From positions 1,860,001 through 1,924,000 of the forward strand of contig NZ_CP024160.1 in assembly GCF_002736145.1 (NCBI RefSeq): 64,000 nt of DNA, written 5' to 3'. Both the position numbers and the translations under genes were made by a program. Each line of letters begins with the position of its first letter. Within the stretch, counting starts at the first letter, position 1. The notes beneath the pieces were generated by a model. That model ran no database searches, was not told where the DNA came from, and worked only from the letters and a program-made list of their open reading frames with translations. The stretch is from Collinsella aerofaciens (GTDB lineage Bacteria; Actinomycetota; Coriobacteriia; Coriobacteriales; Coriobacteriaceae). This document shows positions 1-61,515 of the stretch, one piece after another.

Positions 1-503
1 TGCCCGACACCAAGGACATCCTGCCGCTGCTGTCCGAGATGCAGACCTCGCACGACCAGATCGTGGTGGTCGTGGACGAGTACGGCGGCACGGCCGGCAT
101 CATCACCATCGAGGACATCGTCGAGGAGATCGTCGGCGAGATCGAGGACGAGTTCGACCCTGACAACAAGTACCTCACGCGCCTCTCGCGCCGTGAGTGG
201 CTCGTCGATGGGCGTTTTTCGTGCGATGACGCGATTGAGCTTGGTTGGCCGCTCGAGGAAAGCGATGATTATGAGACCATCGCCGGCTGGATTTTGGAGC
301 TTTGCGACTCGGTGCCCGACATCGGAGAGGTGTTTGAGGTCGCGGGGTACAAGTTTAAAGTGCAGTCGATGCGTGGCCAGCGCATCTCGCTCATTCGCGT
401 GATCGCTCCGGCCGAAACCGATAAGAAGGATTCCGAGTCTTCGGTAGACGAGCCGACGACGTCGGGTGCGGGTTCCGCGAATCCGCACGACGGCGACGAG
501 TAG
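1..503 (+). CDS. CBS/CorC_HlyC-domain membrane protein, C-terminal part
   Basis: The gene enters from the left edge; the reading frame is open from base 3 and no start is visible. The remaining ~166 residues hold the end of a CBS domain (ITIEDIVEEIVGEI) followed by a transporter-associated CorC_HlyC domain (about residues 65-125 of the visible part, containing LVDGRFSCDDAIELGWPL and GYKFKVQSMRG). Members of this family have an N-terminal CNNM/DUF21 membrane domain, which lies outside the window, and are linked to divalent cation (Mg/Co) handling. The tail is Ser/Asp/Glu-rich and ends 24 bases before the next gene, so the two may be co-transcribed. Confidence 0.85.
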   Translation, partial: PDTKDILPLLSEMQTSHDQIVVVVDEYGGTAGIITIEDIVEEIVGEIEDEFDPDNKYLTRLSRREWLVDGRFSCDDAIELGWPLEESDDYETIAGWILELCDSVPDIGEVFEVAGYKFKVQSMRGQRISLIRVIAPAETDKKDSESSVDEPTTSGAGSANPHDGDE

Positions 504-4165: not shown

Positions 4166-4461
4166 GGCTATGTCACGGATGCGTCAGCGTTTGGTATGCC
4201 TGCAATGTGCAGCGCATAAATTCGATGCCGCAGGGCGATGCTGATGCTATAGTTACTGCGGTTAATGAGGGTCAAGAGAAAGGTTACAGGTGAAATCCAA
4301 ACCTCGACCATACAGTCGATGACCCCATGCAGGTGCTTTTTGCGCATGCACGGGGTGTAAGCGTCGAGCGGCGTGCCGCCCGCGCATGCGTATACATATC
4401 CAGAAGCCCCCGGACGCCGCACGCGCGGCCGCGTCCGGAGGAATAATGATGGGGAGCACCA
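4166..4461 (+). promoter_or_regulatory. Structured leader of the MgtE-like/NRAMP operon
   Basis: About 300 bases without a long gene. Two strong hairpins are visible: ACCCC/GGGGT with an inner TGCA pairing (4322-4356), and a G+C-rich stem CCGGACGC/GCGTCCGG (4410-4438) whose 3' arm contains the first two G of the GGAGGA Shine-Dalgarno (4437-4442). A 10-codon ORF (4446-4478, MMGSTIELSE) starts just after that Shine-Dalgarno and overlaps the TTG start of the main gene in another frame. This architecture suggests translational control, perhaps by Mg. The conserved core of the M-box riboswitch was not found. Confidence 0.45.
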
Positions 4462-6306
4462 TTGAATTATCTGAGTGAGATGCTCAAATTGCCAGTCTTG
4501 GACGTCGACGGCGAAAAGCTCGGCGTGGTCAACGATTTTGGCATTGCAACCGGCGAAGTTTTTCCGCACGTGACGTCGCTCGCGTTCCGCGGTCCCGGCA
4601 AGACGCCGTTCATGATCAGCTGGCGCAAATGGGTCGACCGTATCGACGAGACGGGCGTGTATCTCAATACGTCTGCCACCAATATTCGCTTCTCGTACCT
4701 GCAACCGACCGAGCTGTTGCTGGCGCGCGATGTTCTCAATAAGCAGATCGTCGACACGCAGGGCATGAAGGTCGTGCGCGTCAACGACATCAAGTTTTCC
4801 ATGTCGGGCGAAAATCAGCTGCGTCTGCTGGGTGCCGAGGTCGGCGCCCGCGGTCTGCTACGCGCCATCAGCCCCGCGCTCGAGCACGTCGTCGAGGGCT
4901 TTATGAAGCACCTGGGCAAGCCGCTCAGCGAGGATATCATCGCTTGGTCCTACATGGACCTGCTCGACCGCTCGACCAAGAACATTCAACTCTCGGTGTC
5001 GCACAAGACGCTCGGCGAGCTGCACCCTGCCGACATCGCCGACATTATCGAGCAGCTCGACCCGCGCCTACGTGCGCAGGTGTTTGCGCAGCTCGATACT
5101 GCCCAGGCCGCCGAGGCCATCTCGGAGTTCGATGACGACGAGCTTATGACCGAGATGCTCGAGGGCCTGTCCGACACGGACGCATCGTCGATGCTGGCCA
5201 TGATGGACCCGGACGACGCTGCCGACCTGATCGACGAGCTCGATTACGAGAAGGCCGAGAAGCTCCTGCGCCTGATGGGTGTCAAGGAGGAGAAGGCGAT
5301 TCGTAACCTGCTGGGGTATGAGGACAACACCGCCGGCCGCATCATGACCTCGGAGTTTGTCTCCCTGCCCGCCACGGCAACGGTCGGTGACGCCATCGAG
5401 GCGATTCGCGAGCTCGACGAAGACTTCGAGAGCGTCTACTACGTCTATACCGAGGATCCGAGCGGCATGCTGACCGGTGTGCTTTCGCTGCGCACGCTGA
5501 TCGTAGCCGATCGCGACGCCACGCTGGGTCAGCTGGCCTATCGCGACCTGGTCTATGTGTCGCCCGACGAGGACCAGGAAGACGTAACGGACGAGATGAC
5601 CAAGTATGACCTGGTCGCTATCCCCGTCTGCGACGAGAACCGTCACATCCTGGGTATTGTAACCTTCGACGACGCCATGGACGTTATCGCCGAGGAGCAT
5701 CAGGAGGACCTGCAGATCGCCGGTGTCGGCTCGGGCGATAGCGCGTCCGACGACTCGACGAACGTGCTCAGCTGGTTCGTGCATCGCCAGTACTGGGTTG
5801 TTGTATGGGGCATCGCGTCGTGCATCATGGCGACCGTGCTGGGAACGGCGCTCGGCTCCGCGCATCTGGTGGTGTTTCCCATGTGCGCCATGCCGCTCGT
5901 GCTGCTGGCGGCCTCGCGCATGGTGTCGTTCGTCAAGAACTACTTCCTGGAGTATGACGGTCACGACGACGAGCCCAAGCCGTATCTGGGGTTCTTCTTC
6001 CAGAGCACGGGCATGGGCCTGATTCTGTCACTCGTGACCTACCTGTGCGCCCAGCTGGTGCGCACCGCTGCGTTCCCCGATGCGTCCATGTTTGAGGAGC
6101 AACTCTTTACCGGGTGTTTTAATATCGCTGCCATCATTTGCCTGGTTGGCAACATGAGTGCCGTGATTTACCTGATGGTGCTGTTCTGGCGTGACGAGCA
6201 TGACCTCAACACGTCGGGCACCGCCATGAACGTCATTGCCGTCATGATCTCGTGTGTGGCGTATTGCATCGCCGCGGTGCTGCTCGCCATGTCAGTCATG
6301 GGTTAG
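4462..6306 (+). CDS. PRC-barrel/MgtE_N/CBS membrane protein (MgtE-like)
   Basis: 614 aa. The N-terminus has two PRC-barrel-like segments (about 1-75 and 85-150), then an MgtE N-type superhelical domain (about 185-290, LHPADIADIIEQLDP, then DPDDAADLIDELD), a pair of CBS domains (about 295-420, DNTAGRIMTSEFVSLP) and a C-terminal region with about five membrane helices (450-614). MgtE uses the N and CBS domains to sense cytosolic Mg and gate its pore. The membrane part here is divergent, so transport versus pure sensing is open. Translation appears to begin at TTG 4462, with GGGGAG 5 bases upstream. It is followed 8 bases later by the NRAMP-related gene. Confidence 0.85.
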   Translation: MNYLSEMLKLPVLDVDGEKLGVVNDFGIATGEVFPHVTSLAFRGPGKTPFMISWRKWVDRIDETGVYLNTSATNIRFSYLQPTELLLARDVLNKQIVDTQGMKVVRVNDIKFSMSGENQLRLLGAEVGARGLLRAISPALEHVVEGFMKHLGKPLSEDIIAWSYMDLLDRSTKNIQLSVSHKTLGELHPADIADIIEQLDPRLRAQVFAQLDTAQAAEAISEFDDDELMTEMLEGLSDTDASSMLAMMDPDDAADLIDELDYEKAEKLLRLMGVKEEKAIRNLLGYEDNTAGRIMTSEFVSLPATATVGDAIEAIRELDEDFESVYYVYTEDPSGMLTGVLSLRTLIVADRDATLGQLAYRDLVYVSPDEDQEDVTDEMTKYDLVAIPVCDENRHILGIVTFDDAMDVIAEEHQEDLQIAGVGSGDSASDDSTNVLSWFVHRQYWVVVWGIASCIMATVLGTALGSAHLVVFPMCAMPLVLLAASRMVSFVKNYFLEYDGHDDEPKPYLGFFFQSTGMGLILSLVTYLCAQLVRTAAFPDASMFEEQLFTGCFNIAAIICLVGNMSAVIYLMVLFWRDEHDLNTSGTAMNVIAVMISCVAYCIAAVLLAMSVMG

Positions 6307-6314
6307 GTGGTCGC

Positions 6315-7577
6315 GTGCAAAATACCAAGCAAAAGTCGGGCACCAAGCAAAAGCTGACCATCGCGGCCATCTTTGGCGCTATGGGTCCCGGTCTGCTGGC
6401 GGCGCTTTCGGGCAATGACGCCGGCGGCATTGCAACGTATTCCAGTGCGGGCGCCAGCTATGGCTACAAGATGCTCTGGATGCTTCCCGTCATGACTGTG
6501 CTGCTCATCGTGACGCAGGAGACTGCGGCGCGCTGCGGCTGCGTCACGGGTAAGGGCCTGGCATCGCTCATTCGCGAGCGTTTTGGCGTGCGCAAGAGCG
6601 TGTTGGCCATGGCAGCGCTGCTGATCGCCAACACGGCTGTGACCATTTCGGAGTTTGCGGGCATCGCCAGCGGCCTTGCTCTCTTTGGCGTGCCGGCGAG
6701 CATCTCGGTACCGTTGGTGGCGCTGCTGGTATGGATGCTTACAATGTCGGGTAGTTTCCAGCGCATCGAGAAGATTCTGCTGCTGGTGAGCTGCGTGTTC
6801 GTGACCTATATCGTCGCCGCGTTTATGGCTGGCCCCAACTGGGGTGAGGTCGCGGTCGACCTGGTCGTGCCTAACATTCAAAATGACCCCAGCTACGTGT
6901 CGCTCGTGGTCGCAACGATCGGTACCACCATCGCGCCATGGATGATTTTCTTGGCGCAGAACAACGTGGTCGATAAGAACGCGGGCGAGGACGATATCGT
7001 GCTGCAGCGCATCGATACCGTGAGCGGCTCGCTTGCCGCCGATGTCATTGCCGGCTTTATTATCATCACGACCGGTACGGTGTTGTTCCCGGCGGGTATT
7101 CAGATTAGCGATGCCGCCGATGCCGCCCGCGCGCTGGAGCCCATCGCGGGCCAGTGGTCCACGGTGTTGTTTGCCTCGGGCCTGGTCGCAGCGAGCTTTT
7201 TGGCTGCCTGCGTGCTGCCGGGCGTTACGTCGAGTGCCATCTGCGAGGCTTTTGGTTGGGAGCGCGGCGCCGATCGCAGCTGGGACGAGGCTCCGGTTTA
7301 CCGCGGCATCATTACGGCCATCATCGGCATTTCTGCCGTGCTGGTGCTTATGCCCGGTGTCGATCTGTTCCAGATTATGATGACCTCGCAGGTCATCAAT
7401 GGCGTGCTACTGCCCGTGGTTCTGGTGTTCCAGGTGGTTATCGCCGCCGACCGTCACATTATGGGTGCAAACCGCAACGGTCGCGTGTGGAACGTGCTCA
7501 CTTGGGCGACTATCGCCGTGATTACGGTGCTGACGGTTGTCATGTTTGTCCTGCAAGCGATGGGCTACAGCGCTTAG
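6315..7577 (+). CDS. NRAMP-family divalent cation transporter, probably Mg-type (NRMT-like)
   Basis: 420 aa with about 11 membrane helices. GTG 6315 is chosen as start, with AGGTGG 4 bases upstream and the MgtE-like stop 8 bases before. NRAMP proteins normally carry DPGN in helix 1 and a Met-containing MPH motif in helix 6 that selects Mn/Fe. Here helix 1 has GNDAGG (33-38) and helix 6 has TIAPWM (205-210), so the selectivity Met is replaced by Ala. Such changes typify the NRAMP-related Mg transporters, whose structural representative comes from the related actinobacterium Eggerthella lenta. Coupling with an MgtE-like sensor supports Mg uptake. Selectivity is inferred, not shown. Confidence 0.85.
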   Translation: MQNTKQKSGTKQKLTIAAIFGAMGPGLLAALSGNDAGGIATYSSAGASYGYKMLWMLPVMTVLLIVTQETAARCGCVTGKGLASLIRERFGVRKSVLAMAALLIANTAVTISEFAGIASGLALFGVPASISVPLVALLVWMLTMSGSFQRIEKILLLVSCVFVTYIVAAFMAGPNWGEVAVDLVVPNIQNDPSYVSLVVATIGTTIAPWMIFLAQNNVVDKNAGEDDIVLQRIDTVSGSLAADVIAGFIIITTGTVLFPAGIQISDAADAARALEPIAGQWSTVLFASGLVAASFLAACVLPGVTSSAICEAFGWERGADRSWDEAPVYRGIITAIIGISAVLVLMPGVDLFQIMMTSQVINGVLLPVVLVFQVVIAADRHIMGANRNGRVWNVLTWATIAVITVLTVVMFVLQAMGYSA

Positions 7578-58746: not shown

Positions 58747-61515
58747 CTAAAGCAGCTCGCCGTGGCGGGCGATGTAGCGGCGCTTGGCCAGTTGGGTGAG
58801 CGCGATGTAGGCGGCGACAATGCCGATGAGCAGCGCGAAGAAGATTGGCGGCAGCGGCATGAGACCCAGCGCATCGGCGATGGGGCTTGCCGGCAGCCAG
58901 GTGACGAGCACCAGGCCCAGCACGGTGAGGAGGCACAGCGCGGGCGCGGCGTGGTCGCGCGGGCGTGGCAGGCGCGGGGAGCGCAGCATGTGGACCACGA
59001 GCGTCTGCGACCACATGGACTCGACAAACCAACCGCTCTGGAAGAGCGCCGTAAAGGCCGCCATGCCTGCGACGTCGCCTACAGCGGCAAGCTCTGCCCA
59101 GCTTGCGCCCACGGCGGCGGGGCACACCACAAAGAAGAGCGCGGCGAAGGTCACGATATCAAACAGCGAGCTCACGGGACCCAACTCGAGCATAAAGCCC
59201 TTAATGGACGCGGCATCCCAGGCGCGCGGACGGGCAGTCCAGGCGTCATCGACGGTGTCCCACGGCAGCGCGATGCATACGATCTCGTAGACGAGCGACA
59301 ACAGCACCAACTGCAGGGCACTCATGGGCAAAAATGGCAAGAACAGGCTCGCGGCGGTTACGGACAGCACGTTGCCAAAGTTGGAGCTCACCGTGGTCTT
59401 GAGGTACTTGAGCAGGTTGCCGTAGGTGCGGCGGCCTTCGATGATGCCGCGCTCGAGCACGCCCAGGTCCTTTTGGAGCAAGATGATATCGGCGGATTCC
59501 TTGGCGATATCGACGGCGGAGTCGACCGAGATGCCGCAGTCGCTCGCACGCATCGCGGCGGCGTCGTTGATGCCGTCGCCCATAAAGCCCACGGTGTGGC
59601 CGAGTAGCTCGCGCATGACGCGCACCAGGCGCGCCTTCTGCAACGGCGAGAGCTTGGCGAAGAGGTGAGTTTTCTCGGCGCGCTCGGCAAGCTCGGCGTC
59701 GTCGAGCGCATCGATCTCGGAGCCGAGCAAGACGTTGCTCGCATCGATGCCGATCTGCGCGCAGACGGTGGCGGCGACGCGGTCGTTGTCGCCGGTCAGG
59801 ACCTTGACCGCTACGCCCTTGGCCTCGAGGGTGGCGACGGCGCCCGCGGCACTTGCTTTGGGTGGATCGAGGAAGGCCAAAAAGCCCATCAGCACCATGT
59901 CGCATTCGTCGGCGATGCCAAACTCGCCCACGCAGCGCGGATTGGTTTTCTGCGCCACGGCAATCACGCGCAGGCCCTCGGCGTTGAGTCCAGCGACCTG
60001 CTTGCGAATCTGGGCGAGCTTGTCTTTGGTGAGCGGCTGGGCGATGCCATCGACCTCGACAAAGGAGCAGATCTCGAGCATTTCCTCGGCAGCTCCCTTG
60101 GTAACCATCTGGGTTTTGCCCTGGGCGTCGGCGACAACTACGCTCAGGCGACGGCGCGAGAAATCGAAGGGTACCTCGTCGACCTTGGTATAGCGGTCGC
60201 GCAGGCTCTGGCCCAGCATGGAATCGGGTGCGACGGTCGAGGGTGTCACATCGGCACGGTCGATTACGGCCAGGTCGATAAGGTTTTTGAGGCCGGTCTG
60301 GAAGAAGCTGTTCAAAAACGCATGGCGCAGAACGCGCGCGTCCTCGTTGCCATCGGTGTTGAGGTAGCGCTCGAGCACGATGCGGTCTTCGGTGAGAGTG
60401 CCGGTCTTGTCGCAGCACAGCACGTCCATGGCGCCCAGGTTTTGGATCGCTGGCAGCTCCTTGACGATAACCTGGCGACGAGCGAGGTCCTTGGCGCCCT
60501 GTGACAGGCTCGTGGTCACGATGACGGGAAGCATCTGCGGCGTGATGCCCACGGCCACGCTCGTGGCGAACAGCAGCGCGTCGATGACGTTGCCCTTGGT
60601 GGCGGCGTTGATGGCAAAGACGGCTGGCGCCATAACGAGCATGAGGCGTACGAGCAGCATGGAGACGCTCGACACGCCGCGGTCAAACGCGCTCTTCTCG
60701 CCGCGCCCGTTGAGCATCTTGGCGATGCCGCCCAGGTGGGTGTCCGAGCCAGTGGCAACGACAAGCGCCATGGCGGTGCCGTTTTGCACGGAGGTGCCGG
60801 TAAAGACGATGTTCTTGCAGGCGGAGAGTGGCAGCGCGGAGCCGTCGGCACCCTCGACGACGGTGATGGCAGTGGTCTTCTCGACGGCCTCGCTCTCGCC
60901 GGTGAGTGCGGACTCGATCACAAACAGATCGCGTGCGGTGATGATGCGGGCATCGGCCGGCACCATGTCGCCGGCAGAGAGGCGGATTACATCGCCGGGG
61001 ACGAGCTCGTCGAAGGGGATCTCGATGCGCTCGCCGTCGCGCAGGGCGGTGCAGGTGTTGGAGACCAGGTCCTTGAGGGCCTCTGCCGCATTGCCGCTGC
61101 GGGCTTCTTGGATAAACTTCATGCCGCCCGATACCAGCAGCATGATGCCGATGACGATGACCGTGGAGGGGTCGCGCTGCGGCTCAGGCACGGCGAGCAC
61201 GTCGATGTAGAGCGAGACCAGCGCGAGCGCGGCGAGGATGCCGGCGAAAGGATCGATGAACGCATCGGCGATGCGGCGGGCGAGCGTCTTGGTCGGTGCC
61301 TCGATGGTGTTGGGGCCGGAGGCGTCCAGGCGCTCGGTTGCCTGCTCGGCGGTGAGGCCGTTTGCCGTGGCGTCAAGCAGTACGAGAGCGTCCTCGGCAC
61401 TATGGGTGGCGGCGAATATGGTGTTCTTGGACAGGCCGGTATGAGCGGCGGGGCGCGCCGTGCGGCGGCGCTTGGAGATGGCTTCGAGTACCGTGGCGGT
61501 TTTGAGCATCAGCAT
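58747..61515 (-). CDS. mgtA: Mg-importing P-type ATPase MgtA
   Basis: 922 aa, the normal length for P3B ATPases. Phosphorylation site CCDKTGTLTEDRI, actuator TGES (ALTGESEAV), hinge GDGINDAAAMRASDCGISVD and the N-domain KGAAEEM are present. MgtA imports Mg with ATP hydrolysis when Mg is scarce. ATG 61515 has AAGGAGGA upstream. It is transcribed away from pyrE. A 23-codon ORF with a perfect ribosome site lies 141 bases upstream and a family C palindrome lies between. Confidence 0.93.
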   Translation of the reverse strand: MLMLKTATVLEAISKRRRTARPAAHTGLSKNTIFAATHSAEDALVLLDATANGLTAEQATERLDASGPNTIEAPTKTLARRIADAFIDPFAGILAALALVSLYIDVLAVPEPQRDPSTVIVIGIMLLVSGGMKFIQEARSGNAAEALKDLVSNTCTALRDGERIEIPFDELVPGDVIRLSAGDMVPADARIITARDLFVIESALTGESEAVEKTTAITVVEGADGSALPLSACKNIVFTGTSVQNGTAMALVVATGSDTHLGGIAKMLNGRGEKSAFDRGVSSVSMLLVRLMLVMAPAVFAINAATKGNVIDALLFATSVAVGITPQMLPVIVTTSLSQGAKDLARRQVIVKELPAIQNLGAMDVLCCDKTGTLTEDRIVLERYLNTDGNEDARVLRHAFLNSFFQTGLKNLIDLAVIDRADVTPSTVAPDSMLGQSLRDRYTKVDEVPFDFSRRRLSVVVADAQGKTQMVTKGAAEEMLEICSFVEVDGIAQPLTKDKLAQIRKQVAGLNAEGLRVIAVAQKTNPRCVGEFGIADECDMVLMGFLAFLDPPKASAAGAVATLEAKGVAVKVLTGDNDRVAATVCAQIGIDASNVLLGSEIDALDDAELAERAEKTHLFAKLSPLQKARLVRVMRELLGHTVGFMGDGINDAAAMRASDCGISVDSAVDIAKESADIILLQKDLGVLERGIIEGRRTYGNLLKYLKTTVSSNFGNVLSVTAASLFLPFLPMSALQLVLLSLVYEIVCIALPWDTVDDAWTARPRAWDAASIKGFMLELGPVSSLFDIVTFAALFFVVCPAAVGASWAELAAVGDVAGMAAFTALFQSGWFVESMWSQTLVVHMLRSPRLPRPRDHAAPALCLLTVLGLVLVTWLPASPIADALGLMPLPPIFFALLIGIVAAYIALTQLAKRRYIARHGELL

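Follow-up and report, generated by a model that had tools for sequence, protein, structure and literature searches.

A predicted Mg2+ import operon of Collinsella aerofaciens with a leader-peptide gene, an MgtE-like partner and an NRAMP-related transporter

The locus and its transporter

The window analysed here is a stretch of 64,000 nucleotides that belongs to a 2.31-Mb single-contig genome of Collinsella aerofaciens. Within it, the gene of an NRAMP-related transporter (NRMT) starts 8 nt after the stop codon of a gene for a membrane protein, referred to below as the partner, which is itself preceded by a candidate promoter element, a short leader-peptide gene and two RNA helices. The positions of these features are given in Table 1, together with those of a partner gene found next to another transporter in related genomes.

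Table 1. Features of the operon (window positions) and of the partner loci of family f10 (positions in loci L080 and L081)
Feature	Position	Strand	Remarks
Candidate -10 box TATAGT of the operon promoter	4248-4253	+	Putative
P1 5' arm GGGTCA	4269-4274	+	Pairs with 4320-4325
Leader Shine-Dalgarno GAGAAAGG	4276-4283	+	6 nt before the leader start
Leader-peptide gene MKSKPRPYSR-stop	4290-4322	+	GTG start; family core PHS
P1 3' arm TGACCC	4320-4325	+	TGA is the leader stop codon; CCC also needed by P4
Hairpin P4 ACCCC..TGCA.GTGC/GCGC.TGCA.GGGGT	4322-4356	+	Mutually exclusive with P1
Partner	4462-6306	+	TTG start, 614 aa; PRC-barrel, MgtE_N, two CBS, plug and five-helix membrane domain
Partner PRC-barrel domain	4465-4644	+	aa 2-61; PF05239, 32.4 bits (cut-off 21.2)
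Partner Mg2+ sensor (MgtE_N, CBS pair, plug helix)	5020-5721	+	aa 187-420; predicted
Degenerate MgtE channel domain, five helices	5761-6300	+	aa 434-613, last 180 residues of the partner
NRMT, NRAMP-related Mg2+ transporter (predicted)	6315-7577	+	GTG start, 420 aa; PF01566, 296 bits
f10 partner and Mg2+ P-type ATPase	L080 1501-4229; L081 1-2070	-; +

The sequence-only reading had taken the transporter for an NRAMP-related Mg transporter with GNDAGG in helix 1 and a Met-to-Ala change at the replaced MPH site; the motifs were borne out and the assignment gained support. Helix 1 reads G33-N-D35-A-G-G38 and helix 6 T204-T205-I206-A207-P208-W209, so that TTIAPW stands at the MPH site, the metal-site Met being changed to Ala and the MPH His to Trp. 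EleNRMT is the closest solved structure (PDB 7QIA; 497 bits, E 3.6e-148) and all other solved NRAMPs score 109 bits or less, which by bit score places the protein nearer to the proven NRMTs than to MntH. The replacements that mark the NRMTs, with the Asp retained, are Asn to Gly, Met to Ala and Ala to Thr (PMC8806188, also the source of the names of the EleNRMT metal-site and coupling-site residues), and all are present in the alignment to EleNRMT (G38, A207 and T204, with D35 kept). The aligned positions were Asp55, Gly58, Thr224, the Met-to-Ala position, Glu133 (E113 here) and Gln379 (Q359 here). Since D35, G37, G38, T204, T205, P208 and Q359 are invariant across 12 diverse homologues from Coriobacteriia, the motif pattern is not a matter of chance. 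Identity to the closest named records, which are from Collinsella, is 80-86%. Orthology to EleNRMT suggests that the protein imports Mg2+.

A transporter that mainly imports Mn2+, with a partner that senses this metal, would agree with the observation that EleNRMT carries Mn2+ as well (PMC8806188) and with the rescue of Mn2+ transport by the NrmT of A. capsulatum in the presence of its partner (PMC4072509). We consider this very unlikely, given that Met-to-Ala and Ala-to-Thr are Mg2+ features of NRMTs, that Mg2+ riboswitches precede the same operon in relatives, and that the only other Nramp of the genome (L001) is a canonical one, with DPGN and MPHN motifs, as expected for Mn2+, while neither CorA nor a true MgtE was found in a search of the whole genome. 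An MgtA-type Mg2+ P-type ATPase is encoded on the minus strand at window positions 58756-61422, about 51 kb from the NRMT gene (982 bits against TIGR01524, cut-off 610.75).

The partner protein and its distribution

The partner matches PF05239, PF03448 and PF00571, these domains being followed by about five hydrophobic helices, and reaches 218 bits against TIGR00400, under the cut-off of 232.75. The numbering of TtMgtE was mapped onto it with an offset that held for 21 of 21 published residues, and all eight acids that have been mutated at MgtE sites Mg2 to Mg7 are kept (E218, D251, D255, D383, D404, D407, E415 and D416), so that N domain, CBS pair and plug are present with their Mg2+ acids as in MgtE. 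Among 104 loci with five-helix partners, many of them from near-identical Collinsella or close relatives, D251, D404, E412, E415 and D416 are invariant, and equivalents of MgtE D91, D247, E258 and D259 are found in every one. The plug acids are mostly missing in soluble partners and are decaying in those with one helix, which indicates that sensor and plug accompany the five-helix domain. Residue F227 of the TtMgtE ATP ring is Leu in the partner, as it is in half of the MgtE controls.

Four results connect the five-helix membrane domain with MgtE. PF01769, which gives no match in this partner, reaches the domain in three deep members, exceeding its cut-off of 27.6 bits in G013 (28.0 bits) and staying below it in G087 and G040. 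In profile-profile alignment (hhalign) the domain aligned to MgtE with a probability of 85.6% (P 5.6e-6) and colinearly, and an AF2 model of the isolated domain (pLDDT 94.2) retrieved MgtE chains at Foldseek ranks 1-7 (probability 0.99-1.00, the next row having 0.15). Z scores of the model against MgtE were 12-13, in a range (below about 13) that is not decisive alone for helical bundles; for the whole partner and a full-length MgtE structure Z was 20.1 over 409 residues with an rmsd of 11.5, which probably reflects the different placement of the domains in the two proteins. Profile alignment and structure model thus both give the five-helix membrane fold of MgtE. A new fold was rejected on the strength of the hhalign, AF2/Foldseek and Z score results, and a relationship of the domain to NRMT on account of an hhalign probability of 0.3% to the NRMT profile.

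While the fold can be recognized, the pore residues cannot. The pore Asp (D432 in TtMgtE) is replaced in 53 of 54 five-helix domains and retained in the remaining one, and the GGN motif is lost in all 54; in the partner studied here V594 stands at the Asp432 site and ASR at the GGN motif. Mutation of D432 abolishes conduction by MgtE (PMC5882242), and this is one reason why we find it most improbable that the partner is itself a second Mg2+ channel, a divergent MgtE merely co-regulated with NRMT, even with a full-length MgtE fold and a complete sensor with plug to suggest it. The membrane domain has also diverged where the rest is conserved (mean identity among ten loci is 24% for this domain, 56-70% for the sensor parts and 58% for NRMT), and only one of its helices is left in Eggerthellaceae-like genomes and none in family f10. 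Judged from its sequence, the five-helix partner of Coriobacteriia is an MgtE that has kept the sensor and lost the pore, which appears to be a new finding. At the former GGN site in helix 2, residue 485 is Asp or Glu in 36 of 54 domains and residue 486 in 34 of 54, this partner having Ser-Arg there (window 5914-5919); the acidic residues possibly form a new contact or metal site.

The NRMT family and a neighbouring gene homologous to the cytosolic domain of MgtE were described in 2014 (PMC4072509), and NRMT with an MgtE-like neighbour as its core is therefore already known, a publication that the sequence-only reading had missed along with the degenerate channel domain and the leader peptide upstream. 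The MgtE-like gene adjoins most nrmT genes, and feedback regulation was proposed for it (Shin et al., 2014; PMC4072509); in the literature within reach, which excluded most subscription journals, nothing on the partner was found after 2014 beyond the two NRMT papers. The pairing with a CBS/MgtE_N membrane protein noted from the sequence proved real and deeply conserved. In 68 of 70 loci from the class Coriobacteriia the partner gene immediately precedes that of NRMT, and the partner also comes first in 76 of 80 named loci from different phyla; three of the other four end at a contig edge, and in the fourth (L170) NRMT follows straight behind an M-box with no partner. No fusion of the two was seen in the loci read. 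Very long NRMT open frames in some loci (e.g. L040) run far upstream of the gene and were set aside as artefacts. Four to five helices are predicted for the partners of Coriobacteriia, those of Eggerthellaceae-like genomes having a single one, and outside the class the protein stops after the CBS pair, with a tail of 0-19 residues and no helix.

The partner is also found away from NRMT. It is kept with no NRMT match in genomes G170 and G225, in loci L034 and L051 and in family f9 (the families are coded from f1, the operon's own), and since f9 retains the membrane domain, this domain is not only a dock for NRMT. In family f10, made up of two draft genomes, a partner with no membrane domain lies directly downstream of an Mg2+ P-type ATPase (658.8 bits, cut-off 610.75; Table 1). 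A quick tree nests f10 among membrane-bearing partners (SH-aLRT 86-98), so the swap of transporter is probably derived; in the same tree soluble and Coriobacteriia partners are sister groups. MgtA is present in all five f9 genomes and in G170, CorA in G225, and all 14 tested genomes with neither partner nor NRMT have CorA. The occurrence of the partner beside MgtA or alone argues for a general Mg2+ sensor rather than half of a transporter, and fits a protein that follows whichever importer is in use.

These data bear on the proposal, put forward from the sequence, that sensing and transport are divided between the two proteins. A sensor partner fits what was found, and the near-constant order of the genes, the 8-nt gap and the membrane-bound nature of the partners throughout Coriobacteriia, except in f10, could even speak for an obligate two-component transporter in which neither protein works alone. 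Yet the relatives transport alone: EleNRMT does so in proteoliposomes (PMC8806188) and CAC0685 in complementation (PMC4072509). This, together with the soluble partners outside the class, the partners that persist where NRMT does not (L034, L051, f9), the one beside MgtA in f10 and the partnerless L170, makes the strict form of the proposal quite unlikely, and the partner fits better as a regulatory sensor subunit. With the NrmT of A. capsulatum, which acted as a Mn2+ transporter, co-expression of its soluble partner gave no better rescue (PMC4072509); the presence of a partner is thus not strictly bound to one substrate.

The leader-peptide gene and its RNA helices

Alignment of the upstream regions revealed a block conserved in Collinsella and Enorma between unconserved flanks, and TATAGT is found at the same place in many of the upstream regions of these genera. 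The short ORF of this block has the codons GTG AAA TCC AAA CCT CGA CCA TAC AGT CGA TGA; in relatives it encodes peptides such as MKPRPHSR, MKPKPRPHSS, MKVRKSKPHSK and MNEHPHSN, each up to its stop codon, with PHS as the common core, and an AGAAAGG-like site precedes it in other loci too. It bears a coding signature: ATG, GTG and TTG starts and TGA, TAA and TAG stops interchange, the third bases of the Pro codons vary, and indels comprise whole codons. P1 shows compensatory changes (UA/CG and CG/UA) and scores above slid controls. The stop variants TGA, TAA and TAG are matched on its 5' arm by GGGTCA, GGGTTA and GGGCTA, which supports the coding and the helix readings at once. For P4, 97.6% of cells are paired in 23 leaders, with a compensatory change G-C/A-U. 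The predicted single-strand fold of positions 4260-4365 contains P4 and that of 4260-4330 contains P1, and both need the same CCC. As in an attenuator, the 5' leader therefore holds a conserved short ORF with a Shine-Dalgarno sequence, overlapped by mutually exclusive stem-loops. No run of T was seen after P4, which does not clearly cover the ribosome site of the partner.

The leader is closely tied to the partner gene. A covariance model (R1) trained on leaders of the own family gave one match per genome in 118 of 296 genomes, including families outside the training set; it also matched 50 times within 800 kb of locus sequence, and these matches, when read, lay upstream of the partner. The genomes sampled include many close relatives. 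All 99 matches of a degenerate minigene search in 2.73 Mb (both strands) were likewise upstream of it. A whole-genome leader pattern matched once in each of 116 of the 296 genomes, as opposed to a single match in all of them for the reversed pattern, and the 102 of these 116 leaders that were compared lie, without exception, 51-167 nt before the partner on the same strand. By comparison across genomes, both the leader gene and its helices are supported. No report of the leader peptide was found in the literature within reach, most subscription journals lying outside it, and the presence of such a gene before the partner-NRMT operon appears to be new. An Rfam match to a human lncRNA inside the MgtE_N coding sequence (E 0.15) was taken as chance.

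Two covarying, mutually exclusive helices, and a Ser codon that is always AGT in 30 distinct leaders, might also be expected of an RNA aptamer riboswitch of a new kind, the short ORF being incidental. The whole-codon indels, three stops, swapped starts, third-position changes and Shine-Dalgarno sequence render this unlikely, as do a change of Arg to Lys by CGA to AAA, the absence of any Rfam match at E 10 in positions 4230-4470, and the decay of the helices in Eggerthellaceae-like leaders, most of which keep KPHS or PHS. Some Eggerthellaceae-like leaders lack P2, and those of Slackia lack the PHS core; in the Slackia-like loci L059, L060, L137 and L142 the ORFs keep MKVRK (MKVRKHNNR and MKVRKHIVR), and this leader is decayed or changed. 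A GC-rich inverted repeat at window 4409-4440 (CCGGACGC...GCGTCCGG) runs into GGAGG just before the partner start and is followed by an overlapping 10-codon ORF (MMGSTIELSE up to its stop); the start site of the partner could be masked by this arrangement or coupled to it.

In deep relatives the same place is occupied by a known Mg2+ sensor. Of 18 deep Coriobacteriia loci, 15 have an M-box (RF00380) ahead of the operon of five-helix partner and NRMT, and so does L163; outside the class, about one in two loci carry it before the operon. An M-box in the present genome was considered and rejected, since neither the whole-genome search nor that of positions 4230-4470 at E 10 gave a match, and among the loci scanned with Rfam none had M-box and leader peptide together. 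Leader peptide and M-box thus seem to replace each other before one and the same operon, which appears not to have been described before. The position of the M-box in the deep relatives points to the leader as probably its Mg2+-responsive replacement, and this exchange is the strongest reason to suppose that the leader responds to Mg2+; from sequence, Mg2+ regulation of the operon by the leader may be inferred.

Proposed control of the operon and related systems

These results probably reflect an operon for Mg2+ import that is controlled at two levels, in which translation of the leader would govern expression and the pore-dead MgtE would govern transport. NRMT would import Mg2+ as its relative EleNRMT does, with no need of the partner for transport itself. 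The pseudo-channel of the partner most likely senses cytosolic Mg2+ in the way of MgtE, closing when Mg2+ is high, and the signal would reach the neighbouring importer by way of the membrane domain and hold it back. At the RNA level, the leader ORF ends inside two exclusive helices, and the position of the ribosome would select P1 or P4; a ribosome that finishes the leader would cover the CCC common to both. P4 might then act by way of pausing, Rho or translation. When Mg2+ is low, translation across the alternating Pro codons would slow down or abort, and the operon would then be expressed, in a manner similar to mgtL.

The mgtL gene of Salmonella is the best analogy for such a mechanism. In mgtL, alternating Pro codons are present and translation chooses between stem-loops that determine mgtA transcription (PMC6460261, PMC11282234). 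Like mgtL and mgtP, the leader described here is a short Pro-rich ORF with alternating prolines, ahead of a predicted Mg2+ importer and with alternative stem-loops, but it has KPRPHSR instead of the EPDP motif of MgtL, is basic and not acidic, is shorter and comes from a different phylum. By eye nothing beyond the alternating Pro is shared and the peptides are too short for a test of homology, so that the likeness is one of analogy only. The mycobacterial uORF Rv1805A is also a small conserved upstream ORF of an Mg2+-controlled operon in Actinomycetota, but it lies behind an M-box and is reported as mycobacteria-specific (PMC12810186). The M-box (ykoK) itself, absent from this genome, is found at this site ahead of the operon both in deep Coriobacteriia and in other phyla.

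As for the proteins, EleNRMT from Eggerthella lenta (PDB 7QIA/7QIC; PMC8806188) belongs to the same family and to the same bacterial class, and has the same Asp, Gly, Thr, Ala, Glu and Gln at its metal and coupling sites. It was studied in isolation from a partner, and partners of the Eggerthella type (L148, E. sinensis) end in a single C-terminal helix, compared with five here. The NrmT operons with an 'MgtE-like fragment' (PMC4072509) share the gene pair and its order, an M-box in some cases and a proposed regulatory role. That fragment is a small protein resembling the cytoplasmic domain, whereas the partner described here adds a PRC-barrel and a degenerate channel domain, occurs also beside MgtA or alone, and has a leader peptide ahead of it. 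TtMgtE (PDB 2ZY9/5X9H) has in common with the partner the N domain, CBS pair, plug helix, five membrane helices and the acids of Mg2 to Mg7; unlike it, the partner lost Asp432, GGN and F227, gained a PRC-barrel, and stands beside another importer or derives from forms that do.

A tentative extension, which we would put somewhat short of an even chance, is that in Coriobacteriales a leader of 8-11 residues with a PHS core replaced the M-box as Mg2+ sensor, the ribosome taking over the sensing, and that a pore-dead MgtE became the Mg2+-sensing regulatory subunit of a transporter whose fold is wholly unlike its own, namely an NRAMP protein and, in one lineage, perhaps MgtA. The loci form a natural series in which the operon is constant and its RNA control goes from riboswitch to leader peptide, which allows two modes of Mg2+ sensing to be set side by side on one set of genes. 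They also offer a testable case of a channel turned regulator and a partial answer to the question raised in 2014 by the MgtE-like gene beside NrmT, which in this class encodes an MgtE with its sensor but no longer its pore. The hosts are common gut bacteria, and the present genome combines NRMT with an MgtA ATPase and has no CorA.

Some features of the gene surroundings deserve mention. Immediately ahead of the leader or partner, a tRNA gene is present in the Eggerthellaceae-like loci L060, L064, L071, L137, L142, L148 and L079. The f10 loci have a PRC-like gene nearby and, in L081, a YtxH-like gene, and genes of the same types are found upstream in the window. The C-terminal part of a CNNM/CorC-like protein (CBS and CorC_HlyC) is encoded at window 39-503, about 4 kb upstream of the partner, and in G170 a CNNM-like gene is located about 5 kb upstream of the orphan partner (L093). 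A wider Mg2+ gene cluster is possible in both cases.
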